IMG/VR virus record: IMGVR_UViG_3300005265_000016
Span: 1 to 33,935 of that record
Reading direction: 5' to 3' (one strand)
Origin: a virus
DNA: 33,935 bases
Position numbers and translations under genes: made by a program. The notes beneath the pieces are model-generated. The model had not been told where the DNA came from and did no database searches. It was given only the letters and a program-made list of their open reading frames with translations. Of the stretch, positions 3,423 to 31,324 are shown in pieces (the first letter of the stretch is position 1; every line of letters begins with the position of its first letter).

Positions 3423-3628
3423 GAAATATGTTATAGGAGCCAATCTGAGCCACTTTAGGTGGTCACCCTACCCCTACCCTTCGGAAGAAAAGAAAATGGA
3501 TTTAAGACCCCTTAGAGGCCCAGCAATAGCTGGTCTCGGGTATTGCCTTTTAGGCAACACACTTAGAGGGCCAGCAATGACCTATCCTGAAATTGATAGG
3601 ATTACAAATGATATAAATAGGAGGATGT
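3423..3628 (+). promoter_or_regulatory. intergenic cassette copy 1 (hairpins plus promoter-like core)
   Basis: 206 bases without a convincing gene. They open with GGAGCCAATCTGAGCC, matching the opening of the copy at 31204. Small hairpins follow (GGTGGTCACC, CTTCGGAAG), then the core GAAAATGGATTTAAGACCCC at 3492, then CTTAGAGGCCCAGCAAT at 3511. After a hairpin-rich insert (CCAGC/GCTGG, GCC/GGC), the last motif appears again as CTTAGAGGGCCAGCAAT near 3562. CCTATC/GATAGG forms a final stem just before the RBS of the next gene. I infer a promoter or RNA-processing region for the 3629-7201 block. Confidence 0.65.
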
Positions 3629-3844
3629 ATGCGACCTAAAAATGGAAAGATTAATATTGAATATTATGGGACTAAGATTAGTATGACCTTTGATGAGGAT
3701 GCTACATTGGTAGATTTTACTGAAGATGTATTGGCCCCTATGTTGATTGCAATGGGGTACTTCCCTACTAATGTATATAAACAATTGAACTGTTATGAAG
3801 TAATTGAAGTTCTTAAAGAAGTAGTAGAGGAGGGGAGAATTTGA
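3629..3844 (+). CDS. hypothetical protein (71 aa)
   Basis: I do not recognise it. It is a small acidic protein with beta-strand-like alternation at the start (KINIEYYGTKISMTF) and two helices after it. ATG is preceded by AGGAGG at good spacing. Its stop TGA overlaps the TTG start of the reductase (TTGA), so it is translationally coupled to that gene and may be a small partner or regulator of nucleotide synthesis. That role is a guess from position. Confidence 0.75.
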   Translation: MRPKNGKINIEYYGTKISMTFDEDATLVDFTEDVLAPMLIAMGYFPTNVYKQLNCYEVIEVLKEVVEEGRI

Positions 3845-5826
3845 AATATACACCAAGTACAAGAGCACAAGTAATCACTCGTAGGACTTATAATAGGCCA
3901 TTAAATGAGGAAGGAACAGAGTTTGAATCTTGGGAGGATACAGTAGAGAGAGTTATTAATCATCAACACTGGTTGTGGGTAAGAGCTAAGGGTGTAGATA
4001 TTCTTGAACCATATGAGTATGAAGAGTTGGATCAACTACAAGAACTTATGTTGGAGAGAAAGATTACTACATCTGGTAGGACGCTTTGGTTGGGAGGCAC
4101 AGGAGTAGCAAAGAGTAGAGAAGCCTCTCAGTTTAACTGTAGTTTTACCCAGGTAGAGACAGTATATGATGTAGTAGATGTATTGTGGCTACTACTTCAA
4201 GGTTGTGGTGTAGGCTTTAAACCTGTAGTGGGAAGTCTTACAGGTTTTATGAAACCTATCCCGGAGATTAAATCTATCAGATCTACAAGAGGAGTAGATG
4301 AAAGAGGTAAGGAAGAGAATGAAGAGTGGGTCAAAGATGGAGTATGGACAATCAAAGTGGGAGACTCGGCAGAGGCATGGGCAAAGAGTATTGGTAAGCT
4401 CCTTGCAGGAAAGTATGATGTTACCACCCTGGTTTTTGACTTCTCAGAGATCAGACCAGCAGGTATCAGACTCAAAGGATATGGATGGATTAGCTCAGGG
4501 GATACCGCCATTAATAAAGCCTACAGGGCTATTGCTGAAATCCTCAACAAAAGAGCAGGACAGCTCTTGACTAAAATGGATATCCTTGATATTGTCAATT
4601 GGTTGGGAACAATACTTAGTAGTAGACGTAGTGCTGAAATTGCTTTGTTTGATTATGGAGAGGCAGAATGGAAGGACTTTGCTGTAGCTAAAAAAGATTG
4701 GTGGCTTACAGGAAATGAACAAAGAGTACAGTCTAATAACTCTTTGGTGTTTCATCAAAAGCCAACTAAAGAAGAACTAAAAGAAATCTTTACTCTTATG
4801 GAGGAAGCAGGAGGAAGTGAACCTGGATTTGTCAATGCACAGACAGCTACTAAGAGAGCCTCTTGGTTTAAAGGAAGTAATCCTTGTGTTGAGATCCTCC
4901 TGGGGAATAAAACATTCTGTAACCTTACTGAGTTGGATGTAGGTAAATTTAGAGGAGATACAGTAGGACTCCTTAAGGCTATTAGGTTGGCAGCTAGAGC
5001 TAACTATAGACAGACAGCAGTAGACCTTAGAGATGGTATCCTTCAAGAGGCCTGGCATTTGAATAATGAATTTCTTAGACTGTGTGGTGTAGGTATTACA
5101 GGTATTGCTACAAGAGATGATCTAACAGAGTACGATTATAGTCAACTACAAAGAGAAGCTGTTGTGGCAGCTTATGGTATGGCTGATGAGTTAGGGACAC
5201 AAAGACCCAAGAATGTAACAACCGTTAAACCTTCAGGTACACTTAGTAAGATTATGGATACCACTGAAGGAATACACAGACCACTTGGAAAGTATATCTT
5301 TAATAATGTAAACTTTGGTAAACATGATCCACTTGTCCCCAAGCTTAAAGAAGCAGGGTATCGTGTATTTGAAAACCCAAATGATCCCGAAGGTATCCTT
5401 GTAACTTTTCCTGTTGCCTGGGAACAAGTAGAGTTTACTAAAGTTAAGAGACCAGATGGGAGTCTTGTAGAGATTAATACAGAGAGTGCAGTAGATCAGT
5501 TGGAAAGATACAAGAAACTACAAATGTATTATAACCAACAAAATACCAGTATTACAGTATCTTATTCACCTGAAGAGGTAGATGAGATTGTAGACTGGAT
5601 TTTAGAAAATTGGGATATCTATGTAGGGGTATCTTTCCTGTATCGTGCTGATCCCTCAAAGACAGCTCAAGACTTGGGATATCTATATCTTCCACAGGAG
5701 GTAGTAACAAAAGAGACATATGATGAGTATGTATCTAAACTTAAACCAGTAAACATTGACAACATAGGAGGGTTTGATGAGTTGGAAGACCAAGAGTGTG
5801 CCTCAGGAATGTGTCCCGTACGATAA
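3841..5826 (+). CDS. nrdJ: class II (B12-dependent) ribonucleoside-triphosphate reductase
   Basis: Reduces ribonucleotides to deoxynucleotides using adenosylcobalamin, so it needs no second subunit and no oxygen. It resembles the monomeric Lactobacillus leichmannii enzyme. NPCVE at 347-351 aligns with Asn406, Cys408 (thiyl radical) and Glu410; Cys360 lies 11 residues after Cys349 as Cys419 does after Cys408; Cys100 (FNCSF) is the partner of that redox pair. The C-terminal ECASGMCPVR has the CxxxxC spacing of the re-reducing pair. The later KPSGTLSKIMDTTEG is a conserved phosphate-binding segment. The start is TTG with GAGGAGGGGAG upstream. 661 aa is somewhat shorter than 739 in L. leichmannii. 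Confidence 0.95.
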   Translation: MKYTPSTRAQVITRRTYNRPLNEEGTEFESWEDTVERVINHQHWLWVRAKGVDILEPYEYEELDQLQELMLERKITTSGRTLWLGGTGVAKSREASQFNCSFTQVETVYDVVDVLWLLLQGCGVGFKPVVGSLTGFMKPIPEIKSIRSTRGVDERGKEENEEWVKDGVWTIKVGDSAEAWAKSIGKLLAGKYDVTTLVFDFSEIRPAGIRLKGYGWISSGDTAINKAYRAIAEILNKRAGQLLTKMDILDIVNWLGTILSSRRSAEIALFDYGEAEWKDFAVAKKDWWLTGNEQRVQSNNSLVFHQKPTKEELKEIFTLMEEAGGSEPGFVNAQTATKRASWFKGSNPCVEILLGNKTFCNLTELDVGKFRGDTVGLLKAIRLAARANYRQTAVDLRDGILQEAWHLNNEFLRLCGVGITGIATRDDLTEYDYSQLQREAVVAAYGMADELGTQRPKNVTTVKPSGTLSKIMDTTEGIHRPLGKYIFNNVNFGKHDPLVPKLKEAGYRVFENPNDPEGILVTFPVAWEQVEFTKVKRPDGSLVEINTESAVDQLERYKKLQMYYNQQNTSITVSYSPEEVDEIVDWILENWDIYVGVSFLYRADPSKTAQDLGYLYLPQEVVTKETYDEYVSKLKPVNIDNIGGFDELEDQECASGMCPVR

Positions 5827-6016
5827 CCAAGTAGGAGGTGAACACTATCAAGTACAGATACAACCCTGGGAGTATATTGAGGCTAACAACCTTGATTACT
5901 TTCAAGGTAATGTTATTAAGTATGTAACAAGATACAAGAATAAGAATGGTGTGGAAGACCTTAAAAAGGCTATCCATTATTTGGAATATATGATATGGAA
6001 AGAGGAGAGTAAATGA
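5777..6016 (+). CDS. DUF3310 family protein (T7 gp1.7-like domain)
   Basis: After a poorly conserved start, the sequence GGEHYQVQIQPWEYI...NVIKYVTRYKNKNG.EDL.KAIHYL is the DUF3310 signature, found alone in many phages and within the T7 nucleotide kinase gp1.7. A role in nucleotide metabolism fits the reductase and ThyX alongside, but the domain itself has no settled activity. I prefer ATG 5777, preceded by AGGAGGG; TTG 5774 in the same frame is possible. The first 50 bases overlap the reductase 3' end, and the stop overlaps the next start (ATGA). Confidence 0.85.
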   Translation: MSWKTKSVPQECVPYDNQVGGEHYQVQIQPWEYIEANNLDYFQGNVIKYVTRYKNKNGVEDLKKAIHYLEYMIWKEESK

Positions 6017-7201: not shown

Positions 7202-7492
7202 CCCTTGTGGGACACCATAAAATGGGGACACAGAAGAGGTGTAATGTTGTATTGTTTTACTTGCCCTAAAAGGGCGGGGGGGTTAATCAATATTTACTAC
7301 TTAGTTAGTTAGATACTAATATATTATATATTATACTACTAATATAATTACTAATATTATAGTGTAGTATATGTTAATATAGTTTAGTATAATTACTAAT
7401 ATTATTACTATTGTATATAATAACTTATGAGGAGGGGAGTAGTATATAATACTACTACTCCCCAATATCTATATTAAACTTAAGGAGGATAA
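7202..7492 (+). promoter_or_regulatory. AT-rich control region between replication and virion genes
   Basis: No gene seen. In order: CCATAAAATGG (small hairpin; the same word occurs after the capsid gene at 13107); a 42-base block at 7243-7284 repeated at 33101, holding the stem GCCCT-AAA-AGGGC (7263-7275) followed by a G run; about 150 bases of alternating A/T; ATAGTTTAGTATAAT at 7379-7393, also found at 33245, ending in a perfect bacterial -10 box TATAAT; and an 11-bp stem GGGGAGTAGTA/TACTACTCCCC (7434-7444, 7453-7463). An AAGGAGG RBS then serves the gene at 7493. I see no clear -35 box. Confidence 0.7.
7434..7463 (+). terminator. strong hairpin, terminator or RNA-processing site
   Basis: Perfect 11-bp stem GGGGAGTAGTA / TACTACTCCCC with an 8-base loop. 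It is not followed by a T run, so it is not a standard intrinsic terminator; an RNase III target or a 5' stabiliser of the 7493 transcript is equally possible. A hairpin of the same design occurs at 33275-33308. Confidence 0.55.
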
Positions 7493-7861: not shown

Positions 7862-7874
7862 TGATAATAATACA

Positions 7875-8317: not shown

Positions 8318-8326
8318 GGATATGTA

Positions 8327-8620: not shown

Positions 8621-8631
8621 AAGGAAATTAG

Positions 8632-8844: not shown

Positions 8845-8855
8845 GGAGGCATTAA

Positions 8856-11461: not shown

Positions 11462-11483
11462 TATTTAACTTAAAAGGATAACT

Positions 11484-11999: not shown

Positions 12000-12004
12000 G
12001 AACA

Positions 12005-12030
12005 CAAGAACCCCCTCGAGGGTTCACTTG
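12005..12030 (+). terminator. terminator-like hairpin after the outer-membrane protein gene
   Basis: CAAG-AACCC-CCTCGA-GGGTT-CA-CTTG: a 9-bp interrupted stem five bases after the stop codon. An alternative pairing uses ACCCCC with the GGGGGT at 12030-12035. No T run follows directly. Confidence 0.6.
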
Positions 12031-12194
12031 GGGGTAGGTCCTCCGTATCTCTCTCCTGCCTACCTCCAGTTGAGCCTTCCTGGTAGACATACTACGGTAT
12101 GCCCCAGAAGACAACTCAAAGCTTTGGTTGTATGAACTGCTGTTGTAGTATTATTACTACTAAACCACTAAGCTAAATATAAAAGGATATATAA
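12031..12194 (+). promoter_or_regulatory. structured leader of the capsid gene
   Basis: 164 bases without a gene, full of nested stems. GGTAGG/CCTACC closes a first loop. At 12070-12119 there is a three-tier hairpin: TTGAG/CTCAA outside, CTT(C)CTGG/CCAGAAG in the middle, and CATAC-TACG-GTATG at the tip with a stable UACG tetraloop. GTAGTA-TTAT-TACTAC follows near 12147. The AAAGGAT RBS of the capsid gene comes last. Such a leader could mark an RNase III cut or stabilise the most abundant late mRNA. Confidence 0.6.
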
Positions 12195-13103: not shown

Positions 13104-13151
13104 AGTCCATAAAATGGATCTTTAGAGCCTCCTTCGGGGGGTTCACTAAGG
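13102..13151 (+). terminator. terminator after the capsid gene, UUCG tetraloop
   Basis: Two stems right after the stop: AAAGTCCAT-AAA-ATGGATCTTT (13102-13123, one bulge), and CCTCC-TTCG-GGGGG (13128-13141) within an outer pairing CTTTAG/CTAAGG (13120-13125 with 13146-13151). The position matches the T7 late terminator after gene 10. The first stem contains AAAATGGATC, close to the conserved cassette core AAAATGGATT found elsewhere. Confidence 0.75.
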
Positions 13152-13171
13152 TTCAAAATAAAGGAGGGAAA

Positions 13172-14236: not shown

Positions 14237-14248
14237 AGGAGGTGTGAT

Positions 14249-16564: not shown

Positions 16565-16575
16565 GAGCAATATTA

Positions 16576-18166: not shown

Positions 18167-18178
18167 GAAAGGATACAT

Positions 18179-18817: not shown

Positions 18818-18937
18818 CAAGCGATCTGAGCTGTTTTAACCCTTAGGGGTACCTAGGATACCCTTAGAGGTCTAATCGCTGTCAGATTGGCTGCTAGACC
18901 CCTTAAAAGACGAATTTGAAATGGAGGCTATTTATAT
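18818..18937 (+). promoter_or_regulatory. intergenic cassette copy 2
   Basis: It opens AAGCGATCTGAGCTG and contains TTTTAACCCTTAGGGGTACC pairing imperfectly with GAGGTCTAA, then a diverged core (GATTGGCTGCTAGACCCCTTA at 18884-18904). AGCGAT at 18820-18825 pairs with ATCGCT at 18875-18880, a stem not seen in the other copies. Most diverged of the five. It precedes the gp15-like gene. Confidence 0.6.
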
Positions 18938-21067
18938 ATGCCAAATACTGGAACAGATACTGGAATGATGTTTGGAAGAGATGATTTGAGGGTGCTTGAG
19001 GCATCAGCTGGAGCAGTTAGAGAACAACTTAATGCACAGGCAGCTGCTGCTTCAGATACTCCGATGAACCCTTTTAAGGCAATTCTTGGAGGTGCAGAAG
19101 CTGCTGCTCAAATTAAGAAACAGGCAGATGCTCAAGATAAGATGGCTAAGTCTAATGCTGTACAAGCTTCTTGGTATGATCTAATTACTTCTGAAAAGTA
19201 TATGACGAGTAAAAACCTTGATAGAGTCAATATGATTGAAGACTTTATGAAGGCATATGCTGAGGATACAGATACAGAGTTAATGAGTCAGAAGTTAGCT
19301 GCTGGACAGTATACAAAGGCATATCAAGGATTTATACAGGAAAGAGATAATGCTGTATTAAGTCAAGTGTATGCTGACCATAAGAGATGGCAGGAAGAGA
19401 ATCCTGATAAGGGACCTCAAGATTATGTTGAGTGGATCAAGTCTGTATATCCTACTATTGATAGGGCAAGTATCAGAGATGCTCTTGTTGTAGGCTTATA
19501 TGATGAAGCTTCTCAGCAAATCCTTGAGGCTAAGACACAGGATCAAGTTACAGAGATCCTCAATCAGATTAAAGAAAATGCTAAACCTTTTGAGAACCCC
19601 TACTTTCTAAACTCTAAGAATAGTGCAGTACAGAAACAACTTACTCATTATACTTCACAACTAAACTCTACTGTAACACAACAGAGAAAAGCTATTGCTG
19701 ATATTGCTCAGACTACCCTCCAAGAGATACAAGGGAAGATTAAAACAGCTTATGCCTTCTCTGATTTAGGAGGAATGGTACGACCTATTGAGAACCCCCA
19801 ACTTCAAGCCTTGGTAAGAGAGGCATATTATGGGGATACTTCCCAGATGCAAAAACATTTGGCCAATATTGATAAAGAGTGGGTTGAACTTAGAGAGAAG
19901 ACACTTAATGTAGAGAATATGGACTTTAGTGAAGAGTCTCGTGTATTTACAGATAAAGAAAGACCTTTTGCTGAAAATTTGATTGCCAATACTATTGAAG
20001 GACATCTTGAAAGAGGGGAGTTTGCTTCTGTAGTCAAAGTAGCAAATATGCAAGCTCCTTACCTATCTAAAGCTAAGACAGCATTTAAGTCTCTTTGGAA
20101 TGGTCTATCCGATCCTCTCGAAGTAGAACAGTTTGTAGCTACAGTAAATAATGTAATTGCTCAACCTGATGGAGCTGTAGCAGCCAAGGCACTCTTTGGT
20201 GAAAAAACATTGTCTGATATTATGGTATTGGACTATCTTGTTAAGAATGTAACTAATGGAGATGTTGGTAAAGCAAAGACTGCCCTGGCTGAGGCTGAAG
20301 GAAGAGTAGGTATCCCTTATGATGGACAGGGAGCAGTTAGAGAAGAGTTGATGAAGATTAGGGAGGCACCTGAGTTTCAAAACTTGACGGGTGATCTAAG
20401 AGCTAGAGCTAATGCAATGTTTCAGTATATTGTAAAGGTAGCTCCAGATGCTTCAACAGCAGAGGATATGTTTAGTAATGTCCTTAAATTCTATAATGGT
20501 ATGCTTGAAGAGGTACATGATCCCTATAGTGATACAACCATTAAGTTTAATAAAGTAAATGGTACACCTCTCATCTTTACAACACATGGAGACTTGGGTA
20601 AACAAGCATTTGTTAATTATCTCTCTGATTCTTATAATATGGAGAATATTAGTAGTGCTGTATATGTAGGTAATAATAATGTTAAGTTATATGATAAGAC
20701 GGGGTCTTTCCTCGATTTGGTAAATCTTGATGGTCTATCAGATGATACAATCAGAGAATATGCTGTAGTTAGACCTAAAGGAGTACTCAGAGAGGTAGCT
20801 GATACTGTTGATGTAGGTATTAGTAATCTACTTACAAATGCTGAATATGCGGCTGTAGGTTGGGAGGCAATCTCTGCATATATTGATTATGGTATGACTT
20901 TTGGAGCAATTATACAAACACCTCCCAAGAATCCTCTTTATAGAAGAACTCCTACAGAAGAAAGTGCGAGTAAAAAAATAGATGAAGTATTAGGTAAACT
21001 ACAAGAAATAAGAGGTAGGTATGCACCTACTGCTGATGAATCAAGTGGAGGAGGACAAGCATGGTAA
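18938..21067 (+). CDS. internal virion protein C, T7 gp15-like
   Basis: 709 aa (T7 gp15 747), almost wholly helical and Ala/Gln/Lys-rich. In T7 it forms the periplasmic tunnel with gp16 during DNA ejection. The N-terminus has ALGG-type segments (NPFKAILGGAEAAAQIKKQA), and the mid region has repeated helices that bind peptidoglycan-side partners. Recognition rests on size, composition and place between the gp14-like and gp16-like genes. The last seven bases overlap the next gene. Confidence 0.85.
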   Translation: MPNTGTDTGMMFGRDDLRVLEASAGAVREQLNAQAAAASDTPMNPFKAILGGAEAAAQIKKQADAQDKMAKSNAVQASWYDLITSEKYMTSKNLDRVNMIEDFMKAYAEDTDTELMSQKLAAGQYTKAYQGFIQERDNAVLSQVYADHKRWQEENPDKGPQDYVEWIKSVYPTIDRASIRDALVVGLYDEASQQILEAKTQDQVTEILNQIKENAKPFENPYFLNSKNSAVQKQLTHYTSQLNSTVTQQRKAIADIAQTTLQEIQGKIKTAYAFSDLGGMVRPIENPQLQALVREAYYGDTSQMQKHLANIDKEWVELREKTLNVENMDFSEESRVFTDKERPFAENLIANTIEGHLERGEFASVVKVANMQAPYLSKAKTAFKSLWNGLSDPLEVEQFVATVNNVIAQPDGAVAAKALFGEKTLSDIMVLDYLVKNVTNGDVGKAKTALAEAEGRVGIPYDGQGAVREELMKIREAPEFQNLTGDLRARANAMFQYIVKVAPDASTAEDMFSNVLKFYNGMLEEVHDPYSDTTIKFNKVNGTPLIFTTHGDLGKQAFVNYLSDSYNMENISSAVYVGNNNVKLYDKTGSFLDLVNLDGLSDDTIREYAVVRPKGVLREVADTVDVGISNLLTNAEYAAVGWEAISAYIDYGMTFGAIIQTPPKNPLYRRTPTEESASKKIDEVLGKLQEIRGRYAPTADESSGGGQAW

Positions 21068-22137
21068 ATAATACAAAGAGTAATCCACTTGAAGAGATAA
21101 AACAAGTAGGAGATACAATAGATGTAGCTGAAGATATAACTCTTGAGTATGCAGAAGATGTAGTAAATGTTCCTACCTCACAAATAGGAGTTACTAATAA
21201 AGTAGCCTTTAAGTCTCCTGATTCTTCATATACAGATATGTTGATGAGTCTTGCAAATACAATGGGTAAGGCAGCAGATTCAGGACAGCTTACAGTCAAT
21301 CCTTTGAGAGATGCTACAGCTTATTCCTTTAATATGGATACTGGAGCTGTAGCAACACAGATAGATACTCCTGTGTCTACTGTATCTCAAATCTTTGATG
21401 CAGCAGGGAATCTTCTCTCTGAAGTAAGTAAGCCTAAACTTACTACTCCTCAGGTAACACCATCAGGTAAGCCGGGACAGGTAGAGTTTATGACTACCCC
21501 TGCTGGTAGAGCTAAAGGCCATACTGCTGGTTGGTCTGATATGAGCCCAGCTACAGCAAACTTTGTTAATTACCTTACAAAGTCAGGTATTAAAGTAAAG
21601 TATGGTGTAGTCCCAGAATATACAAGAAATAGAAAACTTGATATTAAAGGATTGGTACTCCATCAAACTGAATCTGGGTATAACCCCGCTATGAGGTCCT
21701 TTCTAATTGAAGGACGAAGAGATGGAAATAAAAGAGGTCCAGCATACTTTACTCCTATTTCTGTAGACTATGATGGTACTATTACTGTATTGAATAATAT
21801 TGATCAATACCATCAACATGCTCAATCCTTCAGTAGAGGTACAATAGGTATTGAGATTGTTGGTAAGTATAATAAGAAAACAGGATGGGAGAAACTTACA
21901 GAGGCTCAAAAAAGAAATGTTGTTGTAACAAGTGGATATCTTGTAAAGGCATTTAATATTAAACCTTCTAGAATCTTCCATCATGCAGAATTTGCAAGTA
22001 AGACTAAAGGTGAAGGAGAAGAGGCAGAACGGCTTGTAAAGAAAGAGTTGTTCAATATAGATGAACCTATATTCAATCGAAGAACACAAGGTAGATACAC
22101 ACTAAAAGATTTATTTGATCAACAAGCAAGGAGGTAA
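21061..22137 (+). CDS. virion-associated amidase_2-like peptidoglycan hydrolase
   Basis: 358 aa. Residues 1-180 are a low-complexity acidic region without a clear fold. The C-terminal domain (about 190-345) follows N-acetylmuramoyl-L-alanine amidase (amidase_2, T7 lysozyme fold): LDIKGLVLHQTES with zinc ligand His201, VDYDGTITVL, TIGIEIVG, and IFHHAEFASKTKGEG with His308 and Lys314. The usual KTDPG, whose Asp is the third ligand, reads KTKGEG here. The gene lies between the gp15-like and gp16-like genes, so I infer a virion enzyme that opens the cell wall on entry, taking over from the lysozyme domain missing in the gp16-like protein. A role in lysis is possible. Confidence 0.8.
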   Translation: MVNNTKSNPLEEIKQVGDTIDVAEDITLEYAEDVVNVPTSQIGVTNKVAFKSPDSSYTDMLMSLANTMGKAADSGQLTVNPLRDATAYSFNMDTGAVATQIDTPVSTVSQIFDAAGNLLSEVSKPKLTTPQVTPSGKPGQVEFMTTPAGRAKGHTAGWSDMSPATANFVNYLTKSGIKVKYGVVPEYTRNRKLDIKGLVLHQTESGYNPAMRSFLIEGRRDGNKRGPAYFTPISVDYDGTITVLNNIDQYHQHAQSFSRGTIGIEIVGKYNKKTGWEKLTEAQKRNVVVTSGYLVKAFNIKPSRIFHHAEFASKTKGEGEEAERLVKKELFNIDEPIFNRRTQGRYTLKDLFDQQARR

Positions 22138-22139
22138 CT

Positions 22140-22394
22140 TTGAGGAAAGCAGAAAGTGAAGAAGCTAAAATTGACAGACAGATGGAAATTCTTGATGAAC
22201 TCTCTGGATTTAGACAGATGTTCTCTACAGAGAGTACTGTACCTACACCTGAAATGAACTCAACAGAAGTACAACAACTTATGCAAGCACAATATAAAAA
22301 TTCTATTATTAAAGATAATATTGATAAACTTATTGATGCAGTTACTAATATGTATAATGATAGTAACGAAACTAATACTACTATAGAGGAGTAA
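22140..22394 (+). CDS. hypothetical helical protein (84 aa)
   Basis: Not recognised. Acidic, probably two helices (EEAKIDRQMEILDELSGF and VQQLMQAQYKNSIIKDNIDK). The start is TTG after GGAGG at 22132. Placed between amidase and gp16-like gene, two bases after the former; possibly a small virion or ejection accessory. Confidence 0.65.
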   Translation: MRKAESEEAKIDRQMEILDELSGFRQMFSTESTVPTPEMNSTEVQQLMQAQYKNSIIKDNIDKLIDAVTNMYNDSNETNTTIEE

Positions 22395-22399
22395 TACAT

Positions 22400-25300
22400 A
22401 TGGCACAACTTAACCGTATTAATCCTCAGTGGATACAAGCAGAGAACTTTAGACTGACTCAAGCGAGTTGGGATAGTATTAATGCTGCCAGTACAGCTGC
22501 TCAAACCCAAGAAGAGTCAACCTTTAGAGACTACATAACAGAAGTATCTTCTGTAGGTCTCCAGATGCTTAACCCCGAGCTTAGGAGATACGGTGGGGAA
22601 GATGCCAGTATTACTATCAATGCTGATGATCCTGAGTTTATTGCTCTTTGGGAACAAGCAGATGCTGAGACAAAAGCAAGGATAGCTCAAGCAGATAACC
22701 TTGAACATGCAAAACTTATTGTACAACGAAGAGAGGTATCTGAAGAAGCTCAAGAGAGAATAGCTAATGACCCTTTTTATGTACAAACAGTATATGGATT
22801 AGGAGCAGCCTTAGTTGACCCTCTTACTTATATTCCTGTTGGGGGTGTAGCAGCAAGACTTAATTCAGCCAGTAAACTTATTAACTTAACTCGGCATATA
22901 GCTGAAGGAGCAGCTGTAGGGGCTTCTTATGGAGTAGTACTTGAAGGACTTAAAGATGTCCAAGGGGTAGATCCTGAGTATGTAAATGCTGGAGTAGCTG
23001 GAGCACTCTTTGGTGGAACACTCCAAGGTATTCTTGGCCCTCTTGCTGGACCACATGCAAGTGAATATGCAGATAGTCTTATGGATACTGCCCCAATGAT
23101 GGAATTCAATACAGCACCTAACCTCGAGAATACTCTCACAGGTATTCCTAAGCTTGTCCCTCAGAAACAAGAGGAGACTATCTTTGGTAAGTTCCTTAAT
23201 ATGGTCCCTGGTGTTAAACGCTTTTCTGAGAAATTCCTGGAGTCAGATGTAACTATTCTTATGAGGTCTGAATCAGATGAATTAAGAAGTCTTACTATTA
23301 ACTTGGCTAGTCCTGTGACAGCAGCTAAGACAGCAGATGGTACACCTATACCTATTACTAAAACTGTAGAAGATATTATTCATCTAAATAGAGGAAAGTT
23401 TACTGCTACAAATCAAGCAGTAAGTGATGTATATAAAGATTATATCCAAACTACAGGAGATAGGGTTAGTTCAGAAGACTTCCTTAAAGAAGTATCTCGG
23501 ATTTATACAGAAGCTGCAAATGAGCAGGAAATTCGAGTATGGGAAGAATGGTCATTTCTCAAAGAGAATATTGAATCTAATCTTAAACTTAAGCATAAAG
23601 AAGAGTTAGCAGCTTTAAGACAAGAGTTTAGTACACAAGAATGGTGGGTAAGAGAAGGTAAAACACGAAGACCTGCCACTCCAGAGGATATTTCAGCTGA
23701 ACATTCTGGGCTGTATCTCAAGAAAAGATACAAGAAACAAGAAATGAAGACAGCTCTGGCTGAACTCAAAGAGAAACAAAGATTAGAGAGACTTGAGCGT
23801 ATACAAAAAGAGTTGGAGGAATTGTATAAAAAACATAAAGTAGAATTTAAAGGTTCTAAACACCATATACAAGCAGCTGAAGAGTATAGAAAGTACTTTG
23901 AAGGTTGGGGGGAATATGGAAAGAAACTTGGTATGGATGCTTTTGCTAATATAGTACTATCTAAAATATATAGACCCCGTCTTTGGAACTTTGAGATGAT
24001 GGCTCAAGGTAAGATCACAAAAGAAGAATTAATTCAAAGATTATATAAAGCCTTAGCTGCCCATCCAGCTCAAGCAGGTATGTCTCCAGAAGTTCTCCTT
24101 AAACATGCTACAGATTTGGCTACAGAGTTTACAGCTAAGGGTATTAATGCTATTGAGATGAACAACTCCTATTTGGCAGGTAAGACACTTCCTTGGGAGA
24201 AGACCCTTTTAGCACGTAAGCTATTCCTTGATGAGAGAGAACTAGGTGATCTCATACAGACAAACTTAAGTGAGGTAGCAGGTAAATATTCTTATAGAAA
24301 CTCTGGAAGAACTGCCTTGTATGAAAGATTTGGTCTTAAAAATGCAGAGGACTTCCAAGCTTGGGTAGATGATGTACAACTCAAATTGGCTGAAGAGGGT
24401 GTAGTATCAGAAAGGGAGATACAAGCCTTTGAAGGACTGGTAAGAGACCTTGTAGGTGATCGTAGACTTAATCAGGTAGATGGAAGTCATAGTTGGGCTA
24501 ATAATGTTACAGCCTTTAACTCTACCACTAAAGGGGGAAAGTTTGGATTAACTACTCTTGTTGAGATGGCTAGTGTTGCTGTAGCGGCAGGACTAAGAAA
24601 TTCACTTAATAAAGGAGTATTAAAAAGCTTCTCTGATACCTTCAGGATGCTCTTCAAAGGAAGACAGGGAGATGAAGTCTCCCAGTTTCTTCTTAGGTTG
24701 AATGTAATGGAAGAAGCTACATGGGCCAATACAGTAAATAAGTTTACTGATATTGAAACTCTTGGATACTCTGGTAGAATTGAACATACATTGGCTGGTA
24801 TGAGTAGTAATCTCCAGAAGTATAATGGTATGAGATTCTTCCAAGCCTTTATGGAAAGAGTTGCTGGTACTGCTGTATGGAGAGAGATTGAAACCATTGC
24901 AGGTAAATCTACTCTTTCCAGGACAGAAGCAACCAGATTGGCAAGATGGGGGTTAGACCACAGTACAGCGAAGAAGATAGCTAAAGAGATACAAAGAAAT
25001 GTTGATCTATCTGAGGGTAGACTAAATCTACAGAATTGGAATAGTAATACACTTGATCTCTTTCAAACTGCAACTTCAAGAGCAATTAGAGAGATAGTAG
25101 TACAAGGTGACTCTATCCATTTACCTGATTCAATGAAGGGAATGGGATGGGCAGGTAGAATATTTACCCAATTTATGAGATTCCCTATGATTGCTCATAC
25201 AACACTTCTTAAGAGGGGTATTGCTGAAGAACAGGCAAGATACCTTGGAGGGGCTGTATCTGCTTTTATGACGAAGTTTATGTTGAACTATCTGTATGAA

Positions 25301-25693
25301 AGAGCCCAGGTACAAGCAGGTATCAAACAAGAATATGAAACATCATATGACTTCACTAAAGATGACACACAGATGATGCACAATATTAAGGCATCTTTTA
25401 TGTATGTTGGTCAATTAGGTATGTTTGGTAACCTTGCTGAATATATCTCTGCTATGACTACAGGTCAGGCACTAACACAGAGATATGGAAAGGCTACAGC
25501 TGCAGAAGTCTTTGGTGGTCCATCAGCTGGATATGCTGAAGGTATGATTAAAAGATTCCCTAATATTCTTAGTGGAGATATTGGTACAAGAGAAATGAAC
25601 TGGATGAAGACATTTATCCCTTATCAGAATGTACCTATTATCTCTGAAGTTATAACTGAGATGATTGACCAGTTAGATAAAAATGTGTTGTAG
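22400..25693 (+). CDS. internal virion protein D, T7 gp16-like without lysozyme domain
   Basis: 1097 aa (T7 gp16 1318). The largest ejected protein, thought to form part of the trans-envelope channel. Landmarks: Gly/Ala hydrophobic stretches at about 135-230 (AALVDPLTYIPVGGVAARLN, GVAGALFGGTLQGILGPLAG), long charged coils at about 390-500 (EKQRLERLERIQKELEELYK), and the conserved C-terminal half with GWAGRIFTQFMRFPMIAHTT. T7 gp16 starts with a transglycosylase domain of about 150 residues; the first 130 residues here are helical and show none of its motifs, which accounts for most of the length difference. Confidence 0.9.
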   Translation: MAQLNRINPQWIQAENFRLTQASWDSINAASTAAQTQEESTFRDYITEVSSVGLQMLNPELRRYGGEDASITINADDPEFIALWEQADAETKARIAQADNLEHAKLIVQRREVSEEAQERIANDPFYVQTVYGLGAALVDPLTYIPVGGVAARLNSASKLINLTRHIAEGAAVGASYGVVLEGLKDVQGVDPEYVNAGVAGALFGGTLQGILGPLAGPHASEYADSLMDTAPMMEFNTAPNLENTLTGIPKLVPQKQEETIFGKFLNMVPGVKRFSEKFLESDVTILMRSESDELRSLTINLASPVTAAKTADGTPIPITKTVEDIIHLNRGKFTATNQAVSDVYKDYIQTTGDRVSSEDFLKEVSRIYTEAANEQEIRVWEEWSFLKENIESNLKLKHKEELAALRQEFSTQEWWVREGKTRRPATPEDISAEHSGLYLKKRYKKQEMKTALAELKEKQRLERLERIQKELEELYKKHKVEFKGSKHHIQAAEEYRKYFEGWGEYGKKLGMDAFANIVLSKIYRPRLWNFEMMAQGKITKEELIQRLYKALAAHPAQAGMSPEVLLKHATDLATEFTAKGINAIEMNNSYLAGKTLPWEKTLLARKLFLDERELGDLIQTNLSEVAGKYSYRNSGRTALYERFGLKNAEDFQAWVDDVQLKLAEEGVVSEREIQAFEGLVRDLVGDRRLNQVDGSHSWANNVTAFNSTTKGGKFGLTTLVEMASVAVAAGLRNSLNKGVLKSFSDTFRMLFKGRQGDEVSQFLLRLNVMEEATWANTVNKFTDIETLGYSGRIEHTLAGMSSNLQKYNGMRFFQAFMERVAGTAVWREIETIAGKSTLSRTEATRLARWGLDHSTAKKIAKEIQRNVDLSEGRLNLQNWNSNTLDLFQTATSRAIREIVVQGDSIHLPDSMKGMGWAGRIFTQFMRFPMIAHTTLLKRGIAEEQARYLGGAVSAFMTKFMLNYLYERAQVQAGIKQEYETSYDFTKDDTQMMHNIKASFMYVGQLGMFGNLAEYISAMTTGQALTQRYGKATAAEVFGGPSAGYAEGMIKRFPNILSGDIGTREMNWMKTFIPYQNVPIISEVITEMIDQLDKNVL

Positions 25694-25822
25694 GAAGCGA
25701 TTTAAACGTATTTAACCCCCGAGGGTACCCCAGGTATACCTAAGAGGTTAAAATGGATTCTAGACCCCTTAGAGGCCTTTTAAACACCTATTATGAAATA
25801 CTATTAAACTCAAGGAGTTACT
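25694..25822 (+). promoter_or_regulatory. intergenic cassette copy 3
   Basis: Opening GAAGCGATTTAAACG; hairpin TTTAACC (25711-25717) / GGTTAAA (25746-25752) with inner TACC/GGTA; core AAAATGGATTCTAGACCCC then TTAGAGGCC at 25750-25777; then CCTATTATGAAATAC and the AAGGAG RBS of the next gene. The core is identical to copy 4. Confidence 0.75.
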
Positions 25823-26056
25823 ATGAGTAAAAAAGCAAGTGTAAGTAAACTTAATAAACTACACGATAAGTTGGCTGATTACTTTACAGATGTATTGGAC
25901 TCTGGAGAGGAGCTCTCTGGAGGGACTCTTGCAGCTATCAATACATTTCTAAAAGTAAACGATATCACTGCGGATGTAACAGAAAGTTCACCTATGCAGA
26001 ACCTCTCGATGAAACTACAAGAGTTGGTTAAGAAAGAAGAAGGTGCAGTAGCATGA
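25823..26056 (+). CDS. probable small terminase subunit
   Basis: 77 aa (T7 gp18 89). The segment LNKLHDKLADYFTDVLDSGEE, then LSGGTLAAINTFLKVNDI fits the small terminase of T7-like phages, where a helix pair is followed by a 'KFLKDNxI'-type motif. The tail is a coiled coil (LSMKLQELVKKEEG). The small subunit recognises concatemeric DNA and regulates the large terminase coded at 31325. It is ATGA-coupled to the next gene and preceded by cassette copy 3. Confidence 0.7.
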   Translation: MSKKASVSKLNKLHDKLADYFTDVLDSGEELSGGTLAAINTFLKVNDITADVTESSPMQNLSMKLQELVKKEEGAVA

Positions 26057-26673
26057 GTACAATCCTTGCAGTAAATTGGAGTGATATACAGAATGGAGAA
26101 CAACTACAGTCTGTCAGGGGTAAGATTAATACCTTTAATAGAAATGTAATTGTAGAAGTAGATAGGTTAGATGTACTAACACAACAGTTGGATACTACTG
26201 TAGGAGATCATAGTAGTAGAATCTCTACTCTTGAAACTACAGTAATAGACCATGAAGATAGAATTAATGCACTTGAATCTGTATCTCCTGTAGAGGCAGT
26301 CTTTGAGTATGATACAGTAAATGATGTAACTATTACAAGTACAGCCCCTGATTGGCAACAACTGATGGAAGTAGATGTAGCTAATCTTATTAGTGGAGTG
26401 TATAAGTATACTATCTCTGTAGCCTGGACTCTAGATAGTACAACTTCAAGTGCTGGACTTAGATATTCACTTGATGGAGGAACTACCTGGATTGAGTCTT
26501 GGGAGGAACCTAAGGATAGAACAGATGTAAGACATGCAAGTTTTGCCTCTGTATTGGTCTTCCCTACTGATTCACCTGCCCATCTGTTGGTACAGGTAAG
26601 TAAAGAGAATAGTGGAGATACACTGACTATTAAGAATGGTAGTCTTATTATTGAAAGAGAAAGGGATGTATAA
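26053..26673 (+). CDS. coiled-coil virion fibre-like protein
   Basis: 206 aa. Residues about 20-80 are heptad repeats suited to a trimeric coiled coil (VDRLDVLTQQLDTTVGDHSS, then RISTLETTVIDHEDRINALE). The remainder is all-beta in style with SLDGGTTWIESWEEP, and ends LTIKNGSLIIERERDV. This is the plan of a short phage fibre, head or tail. No closer identity. ATGA overlap with the gene before, TAATG with the next. Confidence 0.65.
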   Translation: MSTILAVNWSDIQNGEQLQSVRGKINTFNRNVIVEVDRLDVLTQQLDTTVGDHSSRISTLETTVIDHEDRINALESVSPVEAVFEYDTVNDVTITSTAPDWQQLMEVDVANLISGVYKYTISVAWTLDSTTSSAGLRYSLDGGTTWIESWEEPKDRTDVRHASFASVLVFPTDSPAHLLVQVSKENSGDTLTIKNGSLIIERERDV

Positions 26674-27119
26674 TGGCTAAACAAATTGAAGCTAATCCTA
26701 CAGAGACATTTAAGCTTACTCTGTATGTTGGACAAGGAGATACTCCATATGATGGACAATATGGGTATAAGCAGAATGTAGTAGCAGCCTATAAGTTTGG
26801 TAGTCTTGCAGGTGCAGATGTAGATGAACAATACAAGAATGACCATCTATATTCCGGCATTTGGAGTCTATATGGAAGTGGAACAGAAGATGTAACACTT
26901 GAATTTGGATATGTAGGAGACCAGAAGCTTGCTTCTAATGTTGATCAGATTGATTTGACATTTGAGAATCCAGATCCTTGTGGTCTTCCTGCAAGCGTGT
27001 CTCTTGTATGGGATGGTACTGATACTGCCTATAAAGGAACAGCAAGCAGTGTAGTAGATATGATTAAAGATAACCATAAAAATACACTTCAAATTACAAT
27101 GGATGTTGTTTACTCTTAA
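26673..27119 (+). CDS. hypothetical structural protein
   Basis: 148 aa, beta-rich (FKLTLYVGQGDTPYDGQYGY, VTLEFGYVGDQKLA, IDLTFENPDPCGLPASVSLV). Not recognised. It is coupled to the fibre-like gene and followed by a cassette, so probably a fibre partner or decoration protein. No signal or membrane segment. Confidence 0.65.
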   Translation: MAKQIEANPTETFKLTLYVGQGDTPYDGQYGYKQNVVAAYKFGSLAGADVDEQYKNDHLYSGIWSLYGSGTEDVTLEFGYVGDQKLASNVDQIDLTFENPDPCGLPASVSLVWDGTDTAYKGTASSVVDMIKDNHKNTLQITMDVVYS

Positions 27120-27258
27120 TGTGTGCTCAGAGCGATTTTAAGCGTGTTTAACCCTTGGGGGTACCCTAGGTATACCTAAGAGGTTAAAATGGATTCTAGA
27201 CCCCTTAGAGGCCCAGCAATGGCCTATTATGAAATACACCTAATTAAAAAGGATACAA
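27120..27258 (+). promoter_or_regulatory. intergenic cassette copy 4
   Basis: The best-formed copy. Opening AGAGCGATTTTAAGCG; long hairpin at 27147-27188, TTTAACC-CTTGGG-GG-TACC-CTA-GGTA-TA-CCTAAG-A-GGTTAAA (17 pairs, one G-T); core AAAATGGATTCTAGACCCC with TTAGAGGCC at 27186-27213; second stem AGGCC-CAGCAAT-GGCCT at 27209-27225; then CCTATTATGAAATAC. Confidence 0.75.
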
Positions 27259-27507
27259 ATGAGAAGTTTTAACCAAGAACCTCAAGTATTTCCTATCCAT
27301 GATTATACTTTGGTAGGAGTACAGAATGGTACAGTTATTGATGATCAGCATATTGGACTAGTCCATTGTAATGAAGATACAAATGTTACTATTGAAACAT
27401 CAGATGGTGGTAGTATTGTTATCTCAGGATTGAGTGCAGGATTTGACTTTAAGTTGCCTGGAAATGCTGGAACACTAACTACTACAGGTAGTGTAATACT
27501 TAGTTAA
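27259..27507 (+). CDS. hypothetical small beta-rich protein
   Basis: 82 aa, not recognised. Beta-strand alternation and Gly/Thr/Ser richness (TNVTIETSDGGSIVISGLSA, ending LTTTGSVILS) suggest a virion surface or fibre-associated protein. RBS AAAAGGATA. It is the first gene after cassette 4. Confidence 0.65.
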   Translation: MRSFNQEPQVFPIHDYTLVGVQNGTVIDDQHIGLVHCNEDTNVTIETSDGGSIVISGLSAGFDFKLPGNAGTLTTTGSVILS

Positions 27508-27516
27508 GGAGATACA

Positions 27517-27678
27517 ATGCCAGTCAAGAGTGTAGGAGGGGGTTGTTATAAATGGGGCAACTCTGGTAAGAAGTATTGTGGTAAAGGAGCAAAGTCTAAG
27601 GCAAGTGCTCAAGGTAGAGCTGCATACGCAAATGGATATAAAGGAAAGTCAAATGGCAACAAAAAGAAAAAGACCTAG
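27517..27678 (+). CDS. small conserved phage protein (53 aa, MPVK...GG)
   Basis: ATG 27517 follows AAGGAGATACA. The protein starts MPVKSVGGGCYKWGNSGKKY, has QGRAAYANGYKG in the middle, and ends in a Lys run (NGNKKKKT). Small phage proteins with this plan, MPVKxVxGGxxWGxSGKxY followed by A..QG.A.YA.G, are widespread near structural genes; none has a settled function that I know of. Two Cys replace usual positions. Overlaps the next small gene. Confidence 0.75.
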   Translation: MPVKSVGGGCYKWGNSGKKYCGKGAKSKASAQGRAAYANGYKGKSNGNKKKKT

Positions 27679-27730
27679 AGATGGCAGCTCACCTGGACCA
27701 AGGAAGAAGCCCAAGTCTTGTAAAAAATAG
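27653..27730 (+). CDS. very small basic peptide (25 aa)
   Basis: ATG 27653, with AAAGGAAAG upstream, reads MATKRKRPRDGSSPGPRKKP then KSCKK. It overlaps the previous gene by 26 bases in another frame and fills the gap up to the next RBS. Strongly basic, so nucleic acid or membrane contact is conceivable. Short length limits certainty. Confidence 0.45.
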   Translation: MATKRKRPRDGSSPGPRKKPKSCKK

Positions 27731-27741
27731 GGGGCAACTAA

Positions 27742-29994
27742 ATGAATTTTGGATTTAATTTTGGATTTAGCAGGGGGGAAGCAGCTGGTATCTTCTGTCC
27801 ACGTCCACAGGGAGAGATATTCGATAACCGTAACTTTGACTGTGGGACGGAATTTTGGGAACTCGATCCTAATTTCGGTGGGACCATTGCCGACAATGGA
27901 GATGGAACGATCACATTGACCGCTACGGACCGGTTCTCCTCCATTACCCAGCTGGACAAGTTCCCGATTCCTCCGGGGGATTACCATATCGGTGTTGTCG
28001 TCACATCCATTACCGGGAAGGGCAAATACTCGGTCAGGGATGATTTGGGCAACTGGTACACTCCCCTGACATTCGATGCCCCTGGGACATATGAGGCGGA
28101 TATCAGCGTAGGATACGAGATCACGGCTATCGATATAGGGGCCGATGATGATGCTTCGGCGGTGATTACCTTCGATGGAGTCGCCTGTATAGATACTGCT
28201 CAGATTCCTATGCCTGACTGGTATAAGATAGGTACACTCGATCCCTCGAATATTCTCGGTGTATGGGACGCTACCTGGCTTGGTATTGGTTCCACCTCAG
28301 ATTTCCTTGTCAATCTGGATGGGACGATGCCCAATATGACTATCGACGCTGGTTCCCCTTCATGGAACGGCCATAATGCCGGATTCGTCTTTGGAGGCTC
28401 CGGGGCTATCAAAAGCCGTCTGCCGGATGGAATCGATATGAGAGACCTGAGTGTCATTATGGAGTTTCACGAGGTGCAACAGAACAACGCTGCACTCGAT
28501 GCTTTCTACTCACACTATCTCACCGGAACCAATGGGCACTATACCCTTCAGAGTGGATGGAATGTCGACAAGATCAGATGGTCTGCCGGTAGTGAGAATG
28601 CGGGGACTATCGAGGAGGGCTCGGTCGCTACCGAAGGAGTCGTCGCTACATGTGGTCTCAGTCTCTATCTCGATGGGCTCTTCCTTGGTTCTGTAGATGA
28701 TAATGGAGAGGCCACCGCTTCATCTGCCCTTGATTTCAGGCTGGGATGTATCTGGGTTGGTTCCAGAACACAGTTCAGCAAGTTCAAACTCAAGAAACTT
28801 CTCATTGTCGATCGGGTGCTTACTACAGACGAGGTACAGGAGATCACCGAGAACATTACAGGGGTTCCTGTCGATGAGCCTATTGTGATTGACGATATCA
28901 CCGAGGATACGGCAGGGTCCTGTGAGTATCCTGCCGGGGATACCTGTATAGCCGAATCGGTGCATACCGCCACTGTTTCCAACGAGACTGGTTCCGTTAC
29001 CTATACCTGGAGTGTAGATACAGGAACCATCACCGATGGACAGGGGACATCAACAGTCACGGTGCAGACGGAAGGGGACAGCGATACGACCTTCAATCTC
29101 ACCTGTGAAGTCAGTGATGATAACTCTACGGACAGCCTGACGGAGCAGTTCACCCATACAAGGACAGAAGAGAGTACAGGACATATCTTCGAGATGCTGG
29201 TTACCTCTGCTTCTATGCCAGGTGTTGCAGCAACTGGTGGAACATTGACCATCGATGACAATGGGGATGGAACTTATACCGTCTGGAGTGACGATCCTGT
29301 GACAAGAGTCTATTTCTCAGAAGCTGAAGTTCAGCCTATGGCAAATGATGATGTGACGGAAGTCGATGTAATCAGTTGCTCCACTATTACATCATTGGCT
29401 GATTTTGCAAAATCAATGAATTATGTCACCAGGATTGTGTTTACGGGCAGTTGTACCGTGACGAATATGGAAAGCGCATTTTACATTGCAAACAGGCTCG
29501 AAGAGCTCGATCTCACCAATGTGGCTTTCTCCGGGGAAGTTGATTTCTACCGTGCTTTCTCAAGTATGGGAAGAGACGCTGCGACAGGGGGATGTGTCAT
29601 TACCGGTCTTGAGGGCAAGGATGTCACGATTTCCAGGGCAACTGAAATGTTCAATGATGGTCGAGTGCTGGGGACCATCGACCTCTCGGCGGCTTCTACA
29701 TTATCGGATACGAACTGGGGCACTTCTTTCAACATCAACACTCCCGATACGTCGGTCACCGCCATACTGCTTCCCGGCAATTTCAATGAAGCAAAACCCG
29801 CCGACTCTATGGCGAACATGTTCAAAAACAGAGAGGGGCTGACCTGTATCAACCATCTGGATACCACCAACGCTACCAACAGAACAGATATGTTCCTGAA
29901 CTGTACATCATTGGTTCAACCCGATGCAACAGCTCAGGCCGATCTTGCTGATACGGATGGAGCTACGTGGGTCAATCCGGGGAGCTGTCCATGA
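27742..29994 (+). CDS. large receptor-binding / tail appendage protein with LamG and LRR-like domains
   Basis: 750 aa. Start MNFGFNFGFSRGEAAGIFCP, then a jelly-roll-like module (about 25-150), a concanavalin/LamG-like domain (about 165-372, closing KLLIVDRVLTTDEVQEI), an Ig/PKD-like module (about 390-478, GSVTYTWSVDTGTITDGQG), and a C-terminal stretch resembling BspA-type leucine-rich repeats (SMANMFKNREGLTCINHLDT, NRTDMFLNCTSLVQP). All are binding modules, so I infer host recognition. Third positions are visibly richer in G and C than in neighbouring genes, a sign of recent transfer. The stop overlaps the next start (ATGA). Confidence 0.8.
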   Translation: MNFGFNFGFSRGEAAGIFCPRPQGEIFDNRNFDCGTEFWELDPNFGGTIADNGDGTITLTATDRFSSITQLDKFPIPPGDYHIGVVVTSITGKGKYSVRDDLGNWYTPLTFDAPGTYEADISVGYEITAIDIGADDDASAVITFDGVACIDTAQIPMPDWYKIGTLDPSNILGVWDATWLGIGSTSDFLVNLDGTMPNMTIDAGSPSWNGHNAGFVFGGSGAIKSRLPDGIDMRDLSVIMEFHEVQQNNAALDAFYSHYLTGTNGHYTLQSGWNVDKIRWSAGSENAGTIEEGSVATEGVVATCGLSLYLDGLFLGSVDDNGEATASSALDFRLGCIWVGSRTQFSKFKLKKLLIVDRVLTTDEVQEITENITGVPVDEPIVIDDITEDTAGSCEYPAGDTCIAESVHTATVSNETGSVTYTWSVDTGTITDGQGTSTVTVQTEGDSDTTFNLTCEVSDDNSTDSLTEQFTHTRTEESTGHIFEMLVTSASMPGVAATGGTLTIDDNGDGTYTVWSDDPVTRVYFSEAEVQPMANDDVTEVDVISCSTITSLADFAKSMNYVTRIVFTGSCTVTNMESAFYIANRLEELDLTNVAFSGEVDFYRAFSSMGRDAATGGCVITGLEGKDVTISRATEMFNDGRVLGTIDLSAASTLSDTNWGTSFNINTPDTSVTAILLPGNFNEAKPADSMANMFKNREGLTCINHLDTTNATNRTDMFLNCTSLVQPDATAQADLADTDGATWVNPGSCP

Positions 29995-30770
29995 TGAAGC
30001 TTGGCAGTGTAGAACCCGACAATTTCCTCCTTGGTTCCACTCAGGTGGATGCTCTCTATCAAGGAACTGAGAAGGTATGGCCTACTGTTCCTCCCTGGAA
30101 TGAGTGTGACCCATTCAATGATGGAAGTTTACTGTATTATTGGAATTTTGATAATACATTAGATAATTTCTGTGGTGAAGGAACTTGGGATTCTTTAGCT
30201 TCTACGCCTCTTTATGCTCCTGGTGTAAGTGGTGAGAGTATTGAATTTGTTGATGATGAATCTCATAGATTATTTTATGATCCCCCTGTTGGTACAGTTC
30301 CATATAAAAACGGCACAATTAATTTCTTTATGAAAGTAGGTGACTCCCCTCCTGATCCTCCTTCAGGTACAGATGCAGTACTTTATGCTTATAAAGAAGG
30401 TGGTGATGAGTGGGGAATAAGAGTAAGAGTTGAGGATGATTATATTATAGTTGATGTTGATAACTCTGGAGATTGGCTAACATTGGATACTACTGCATCT
30501 TTTCAAGCTAATTTTAGAATGATAAGTATTGTATTAGTCGATTTGGGTAGTGGTGCTCTTAGAATGGATGCTTATGTAGATGGGGTATATATAGGAAATA
30601 GAACAGCTAGTTCTTCAAGAACTCATCTCGATAGATTTTATTTGGGAGCAACTAATGCGAATGACATTAAATTTGATGGATATATTGATGAGTTTACTAT
30701 TTATAACAGGGTTTTAACTGAGGAAGAAATTCAATATATCTACAATCATTATCTCGGAGCTTCCCAATGA
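29991..30770 (+). CDS. LamG-domain receptor-binding protein, chimeric
   Basis: 260 aa. I start it at ATG 29991 (ATGA overlap, GGGGAG upstream). Residues 1-35 hold the anchor motif LGSTQVDALYQGTEKVWP, seen at the start of many phage structural proteins. After NECDPF comes a LamG-like domain: DGSLLYYWNFDNTLDN, SGESIEFVDDE, LRMDAYVDGVYIGNRT, closing FTIYNRVLTEEEIQYIYN. The first ~110 bases keep the GC-richer style of the gene before; from about 30110 the DNA is again AT-rich, so the recombination edge lies between anchor and binding domain. Confidence 0.8.
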   Translation: MMKLGSVEPDNFLLGSTQVDALYQGTEKVWPTVPPWNECDPFNDGSLLYYWNFDNTLDNFCGEGTWDSLASTPLYAPGVSGESIEFVDDESHRLFYDPPVGTVPYKNGTINFFMKVGDSPPDPPSGTDAVLYAYKEGGDEWGIRVRVEDDYIIVDVDNSGDWLTLDTTASFQANFRMISIVLVDLGSGALRMDAYVDGVYIGNRTASSSRTHLDRFYLGATNANDIKFDGYIDEFTIYNRVLTEEEIQYIYNHYLGASQ

Positions 30771-30973
30771 GTGAGCAGGCTAAGATGGAAATCAAGCTGG
30801 GGGCTATGAGTATTGTTCTCAGTATCACTATTTCTCTGATTGGTACCATCTGGTATGCTGGCTCCAAGTTTGGGGAGATAGATTCGAGGCTTGATCAGTA
30901 TCAGGAGAGTATTACTGATCTAAATAAGAAGGTGATGGAGATCACCAAAATATTAATAGAGGATAAGAGATGA
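30767..30973 (+). CDS. single-span membrane protein with coiled coil, holin or spanin candidate
   Basis: 68 aa. A hydrophobic span at about 12-31 (GAMSIVLSITISLIGTIWYA) is followed by a charged coiled coil (FGEIDSRLDQYQESITDLNK). T7 has its holin (gp17.5, 67 aa) in this place between fibre and large terminase. The plan also fits an inner-membrane spanin. I see no lysis gene with a firmer claim in this window. ATGA overlaps on both sides couple it to its neighbours. Confidence 0.6.
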   Translation: MSEQAKMEIKLGAMSIVLSITISLIGTIWYAGSKFGEIDSRLDQYQESITDLNKKVMEITKILIEDKR

Positions 30974-31203
30974 GAAAAGCAGTAATAGGACAAGTAGCAG
31001 TACTTGCCTTTATGATTGTAGGTGGTACAGCTCTAACTGGACTAGCCACAGGAGATGCTCAATGGCAGTATTATACTAATAATAATACATGTGATAGTAA
31101 ACATTATATTTATACCTTCTTTCCTAAAAGTGATAAAGAAACAGGTAAATGGTATAAAGTAAAGGTGGTAGTTCCCTGTAATGAATGGTTTAAGAAAAAA
31201 TAG
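30970..31203 (+). CDS. exported or membrane-anchored small protein
   Basis: 77 aa. The N-terminal MRKAVIGQVAVLAFMIVGGT is a signal peptide or anchor. The rest, about 50 residues, has two Cys (NNTCDSKHY and VPCNEW) that could form a disulphide in the periplasm, and a basic end (FKKK). There is no lipobox, so it is not a clear outer-membrane spanin. Coupled to the holin candidate by ATGA, so a lysis role is the simplest guess. Confidence 0.6.
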   Translation: MRKAVIGQVAVLAFMIVGGTALTGLATGDAQWQYYTNNNTCDSKHYIYTFFPKSDKETGKWYKVKVVVPCNEWFKKK

Positions 31204-31324
31204 CTCTAGGAGCCATTCTGAGCCCTTTTAGTGCCTAGGTATACCCTAGGTACCCCTAAAGGCTTAAAATGGATTCTAGACCCCTTAGAGGGCCATTAAA
31301 CACTATATATGAATTGGAGGTAAT
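31204..31324 (+). promoter_or_regulatory. intergenic cassette copy 5
   Basis: Opening GGAGCCATTCTGAGCC as in copy 1. The hairpin TTTTAGTGCC (31226-31235) pairs with GGCTTAAAA (31261-31269): where copies 3 and 4 have AACC with GGTT, this one has GCC with GGC, so pairing is kept although the bases differ. Core AAAATGGATTCTAGACCCC then TTAGAGGGCC at 31266-31294. It precedes the large terminase. Confidence 0.75.

Follow-up and report, generated by a model that had tools for sequence, protein, structure and literature searches.

A repeated intergenic hairpin of a T7-like phage as a candidate family of RNase III-type processing sites

Bacteriophage T7 carries 10 RNase III sites, six of which lie in the same gap as a promoter (PMC9135205). 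Several of these R sites resemble each other in sequence and form a partly similar family, as do the copies of the element described here. The element is about 90 bases long and occurs in five copies, all on the + strand and each occupying an intergenic gap, in a window that is a whole IMG/VR virus record of 33,935 bases and part of a T7-like phage genome. A sequence-only reading had likened these gaps to the ones that hold promoters and RNase III sites in T7; the likeness to RNase III sites is supported by the present analysis.

The genes of the window include those for DNA polymerase, ThyX, ribonucleotide reductase, portal, scaffold, capsid, tail tube, internal virion proteins, and terminase. 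The RNA polymerase and primase genes lie outside it, and the left genome end is missing. The phage lineage is a marine or environmental T7-like one; among named isolates, the searches placed Roseobacter phage CRP-143 closest to it (terminase 64%). The IMG/VR relatives compared were L006 (record G001), L089, L094 (G007), and L185, L267, and L276 (G010). The genes at 26673-31203, from the small terminase region to the large terminase gene, have no homologues in the compared relatives except for a 53-aa gene in L089; they include a LamG-like lectin and a PKD-like protein, and a receptor-binding or decoration role is likely. A 36-base unit is perfectly duplicated in tandem directly 3′ of the DNA polymerase gene (2077-2148), and the right end (33716-33935) consists of C+T-rich 42-base tandem repeats that are perhaps akin to the short repeats at T7 genome ends.

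The five copies and their sequence

The five intervals coincide exactly with the intergenic gaps that follow five stop codons, and their position ahead of gene blocks is as first described. The copies, and a partial sixth copy of the core, are as follows:

3423-3628, + strand: copy 1, between thyX and the 71-aa ORF that precedes the ribonucleotide reductase gene; the model matches 3437-3527
18818-18937, + strand: copy 2, from the gp14-like internal virion gene to a 709-aa gene; hairpin 18820-18892
25694-25822, + strand: copy 3, ahead of the small terminase/maturase-A-like gene, with its inner stem at 25711-25752 and an exact core at 25750-25775
27120-27258, + strand: copy 4, at the edge of the gene block missing from relatives, with its inner stem at 27147-27188 and an exact core at 27186-27211
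31204-31324, + strand: copy 5, ahead of the large terminase gene, with one unbroken long hairpin at 31205-31280
13110-13155, + strand: partial sixth core copy (core 13110-13129), after the capsid gene; TAAAATGGATCTTTAGAG is the 5′ arm of a different hairpin

That these are copies of one repeat was borne out by several comparisons. Copies 3-5 carry the 26-base core unchanged and copy 1 carries it with two mismatches, whereas 100 shuffles contained 0.00 occurrences on average. In gap-to-gap alignments nine of the ten copy pairs exceed all 200 shuffles, the weak pair being copy 1 with copy 2 (14/200 shuffles). A model of the five copies matches only those five + strand places in the window (E 2e-26 to 2e-15), scores that are high by construction because the model was built from the same copies. 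Its next matches are the same five places on the minus strand, as the element is near-palindromic. A model match inside thyX of L089 (E 0.17) was taken as chance.

The order and sequence ascribed to all five need correction in three copies: copy 3 opens with GAAGCGAT and not with GAGC, the core of copy 2 is reduced to CTAGACCCCTTA, and copy 1 retains opening and core but has lost a comparable inner hairpin (-7.0 kcal/mol, z +0.95), its tail being duplicated in part. No Rfam family matches the element at gathering score, and an exact scan of IMG/VR with a 19-base core found nothing outside the window. BLAST searches of phage isolates with copy 4 and the L051, L067, and L197 elements returned nothing useful, and a 15-base core pattern gave 74 scattered matches in bacterial genomes, not above chance expectation.

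Folding and the processing interpretation

Copy 5 forms a single hairpin (31205-31280) in which TCTAGGAGCCATTCTGAGCC pairs with GGCTTAAAATGGATTCTAGA around the inner stem and the opening TCTAGGAGCCATT is paired to core AATGGATTCTAGA; its fold has z-scores of -3.9 and -4.5 in two scorings, with an overall range of -2.9 to -4.5. The outer arms of copy 2 differ from those of copy 5 (AGCGATCTGA and TCAGATTGGCT, duplex -22 kcal/mol). What had been described as a hairpin followed by a separate fixed core is thus, in copies 2 and 5, one long interrupted hairpin, with the opening and the core (its 3′ arm) pairing as opposite sides of a single outer stem. In copies 3 and 4 the outer arms are weak (about -6) and the inner stem, TTTAACC..GGTTAAA, is strong; here the core can form a small hairpin of its own (UUCUAG-ACCCC-UUAGAG). 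A long, mostly double-stranded intergenic hairpin is found in copies 2-5 and is lacking in copy 1, and in copies 1, 3, and 4 the outer stem is either dispensable at some sites or being lost there.

In a two-step z-score scan of hairpins in the window, copies 5 and 2 rank 4th and 7th, and strong hairpins in coding regions (at 21301 and 17111) equal or exceed the copies. For comparison with known sites, the T7 genome was scanned in the same way, and there the R1.3 region ranks first and the R3.8 region second, at what we take to be the positions of these sites (the GenBank record does not list R sites).

The reading that we favor, at a probability of roughly 0.55, is that the cassettes are hairpins in the late polycistronic RNA that serve for RNase III-type processing, like the T7 R sites, and that have spread to five gaps. 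The late genes would probably be transcribed from a promoter before the head genes to the end, so that each cassette would be transcribed within a long late mRNA, and the RNA of copies 2-5 is predicted to form, between two genes, a long double-stranded hairpin with interruptions. This hairpin would most likely be cut by host RNase III, and the cut would separate the upstream and downstream messages and leave ends with defined stability, with a presumed effect on expression. Standing against the processing reading are copy 1, which is without the hairpin, copies 3 and 4, which are without a strong outer stem, the coding-region hairpins of equal or greater strength, and a core that is more conserved than pairing alone requires and may have a role of its own.

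The conservation of the core bears on another explanation, in which the hairpin stabilizes or protects mRNA ends (as an exonuclease barrier) or insulates translation between genes, with a core that a protein binds or that acts close to ribosome binding. The greater conservation of the core with its ACCCC loop than of the stem, the small hairpin of the core in copies 3 and 4, and the persistence of the element in copy 1 without the long stem all point that way. A processing site, however, accounts better for the mid-operon position and the long double-stranded stem, there is no known binder, and we regard a stabilizer or insulator as unlikely.

Counterparts in related phages

Conservation in relatives, which counts toward the processing reading, was examined at the pre-terminase gap. 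That of L006 holds a diverged counterpart of copy 5 (63% identity, 0/300 shuffles) that still folds as a single long hairpin (z about -3.5 to -3.9). The G010 gap holds a long hairpin of unrelated sequence (z -4.0), that of L094 a weaker one of other sequence (z about -2.2), and that of CRP-143 is only 43 nt. Most gap hairpins of L094 are homologous to one another; their best scores against the window family, 2-3/300 shuffles over 15 comparisons, are only suggestive of homology.

Across 81 terminase loci the pre-terminase gap is mostly short. Among gaps of at least 75 nt, eight that come from phages with terminases about 40% identical (L019, L020, L051, L058, L067, L069, L076, L081) have long hairpins. 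Homology was found between copy 5 and L067 and between copy 3 and L051 (0/400 shuffles each), and L051 and L067 align collinearly with the window copies over about 90 nt with one 2-nt gap and an invariant TTCTAGAC.CC. The TTCTAGACCCC box is common to the window element and the pre-terminase elements of L051, L067, and others. In a gap scan of the contigs 111 of 355 scored gap hairpins reach z < -3, so a hairpin as such is ordinary and the specific part is the homologous family with the box.

The change of stem bases from AACC:GGTT to GCC:GGC, which had been taken as a sign that pairing is being kept, is visible, but in the five copies alone covariation of the inner stem is not above shuffles (156/500), and that of the copy-5 fold is modest (extra pair types 5/500 shuffles, covariation score 41/500). 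Across phages pairing is kept more often than in shuffles. A structure taken from L051 and L067 was scored on a nine-sequence alignment that includes both: 13 cells changed on both sides with the pair kept, against a shuffle mean of 6.2 (0/500), and 70.9% of cells are paired, against at most 53.4% when slid. RNAalifold found no consensus structure on the same alignment, perhaps due to a drift in pairing register between copies 3 and 4 and the others; the inner pairing register of these two copies differs from that of L051 and L067, which, like the RNAalifold result, counts against the processing reading.

We also consider, tentatively and as a rather doubtful extension, that the cassette represents a structured RNA family of marine T7-like phages not described before. 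The family would have its fixed place ahead of the large terminase gene, would have multiplied in some lineages, and would carry a conserved TTCTAGACCCC box read by a phage or host factor that sets late gene expression, beyond simple RNase III cutting.

Two other hairpins were observed in these genomes. The first, very strong (about -50 kcal/mol), lies upstream of the primase/polymerase region (L197:561-670, L201:300-401, L206:587-690, L220:121-222). It opens with GCTCTAGGAGGCTCTGAG, similar to the opening of window copy 5, with GCTCTAGGAG in common, which is a likeness only, homology not being established. The second, in the scaffold-capsid gap of relatives, is very stable and conserved, with about 30 pairs or more and in several cases the pyrimidine loop TTTTTCTCTCCTTTTCT, and a small hairpin, RTACTACGGTRT, comes after it. 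The large hairpin appears to be a conserved structured RNA ahead of the capsid gene, its loop resembling an anti-Shine-Dalgarno sequence, and a diverged version lies at 12000-12194 of the window. In relatives it is found at:

L263:3312-3484, L265:3386-3604, L266:6498-6723, L268:2838-3064, and L269:5255-5442: scaffold-capsid hairpin
L270:7579-7780, L271:2654-2865, and L272:2224-2450, and CRP-143 (L091) between scaffold and capsid: scaffold-capsid hairpin

Promoters, gene exchange, and the comparison with T7

The sequence-only reading had proposed that each cassette fuses a promoter with an RNase III site. A word repeated ahead of gene blocks is often a promoter in T7-like phages, the two kinds of site share gaps in T7, and the polymerase gene is outside the window, all of which would suit an opening or core that serves as a phage RNA polymerase promoter fused to the hairpin. 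The relatives (CRP-143, G010, L094, and L006), however, have a clear separate repeated word of 20-23 bp at a few fixed slots of its own: on either side of the RNA polymerase gene, ahead of the head genes, and following terminase. It reads TGTGTCAAGTCTACGCTATACG in CRP-143 and G010 (also written TGTGTCAAGTCTACG), TGTAGGAAGTCTACAAAAAATAC in L094, which has a copy in its early region, and TGTACCAAGTTTACAATATAT in L006. Its positions are:

L091:2165, 4641, 14436, and 38866; L185:1363, 3842, and 13691: TGTGTCAAGTCTACGCTATACG and variants
L094:2118 and 4947; L178:232 and 11638; L006:11639, 17390, and 20106: TGTGTCAAGTCTACGCTATACG and variants

From their repetition and position these words are probably promoters; the CRP-143 paper does not mention promoters. 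The word is absent from the relatives' late gaps, from the tail genes to terminase, and the cassettes occupy places that lack it in relatives. The two corresponding slots in the window hold a different repeat, found at these places only:

7243-7282, + strand: repeat AATGTTGTATTGTTTTRCTTGCCC, in the promoter slot before the head genes; not part of a cassette, a phage promoter candidate
33101-33140, + strand: second copy of AATGTTGTATTGTTTTRCTTGCCC, in the promoter slot after the terminase gene; not part of a cassette

No cassette precedes the head genes. The core, which is a stem arm in copies 2 and 5, is moreover shared with phages of about 40% terminase identity, in which a promoter word would be expected to differ, and a promoter role for the cassette is accordingly improbable. 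Beyond the repeat itself, 7243-7463 and 33101-33308 resemble each other over about 220 bases; each runs from the promoter-like word through a short GC hairpin and an AT-rich stretch to a GGGGAG..CTCCCC hairpin, and may combine a promoter with a replication origin. A repeated 25-base word, TTTGGTRCCATTACGTKTGTTTAAA, is present in the early region of L006 (14141 and 17070).

The cassettes had further been called mobile, which is fair in part. At the junctions of copies 2 and 3 the gaps of L006, L094, and CRP-143 are about 2-19 nt, so these copies are clean additions in the window lineage or losses in the others; no mobilizing machinery or target duplication was seen. An element acting at the DNA level, as a recombination boundary or as a hairpin repeat spread by template switching that enables exchange of gene modules, would be in keeping with the lack of the cassette at the same junctions in relatives. 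It would also suit copies 4 and 5: the genes between them (27259-31203) lack homologues in the compared relatives, except that the 53-aa gene just after copy 4 is found elsewhere in L089. The other strand of copy 2, moreover, resembles the opening box of copy 1 (AGCCAATCTGA), as would be expected if one arm were rewritten from the other by quasi-palindrome correction. Yet the strand is the same for every copy, the conserved junctions that hold copies 2 and 3 show no exchange, and neither the orientation nor the fixed pre-terminase place in distant phages is explained, which leaves a DNA-level role with little probability.

Least probable is that the hairpins terminate or pause the phage polymerase: there are stable stems between genes, and relatives have, after the capsid gene, a hairpin with a T-run behind it, but a + strand scan of 18000-33935 for terminator-like sites (GC-rich stem plus T-run) found none at copies 2-5, copy 1 (outside that scan) likewise has no T-run, and without a T-run there is no intrinsic terminator, nor is an alternative promoter seen downstream for the essential terminase gene.

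If the cassettes are processing hairpins, an environmental T7-like lineage gains a candidate set of mRNA processing sites, one of which is traceable across phages with terminases only about 40% identical and can multiply within a genome. The suggested layout is one of few promoters and many processing hairpins that would together set late gene doses, as modeled for T7.

Set beside known systems, the cassettes resemble intrinsic terminators such as T7 T-phi in being hairpins between genes and differ in lacking the T-run. With T7-type phage promoters, represented by the clade word TGTGTCAAGTCTACGCTATACG, they have in common that both are repeated words in gaps of the same phages, and they differ in sequence and in slots. 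The model of the window element has no match in the T7 genome, and hence no detectable homology to T7 R sites, although homology does not define RNase III substrates in general. The T7 RNase III sites (R0.3 to R18.5) have shorter stems, with arms AAGG..CCTTTATGA, whereas the window stems reach about 76 nt and carry the TTCTAGACCCC box. Both are intergenic same-strand hairpins, several per genome and some mutually similar, and the window element, a real, conserved, and unnamed hairpin, most likely works like the T7 RNase III sites.
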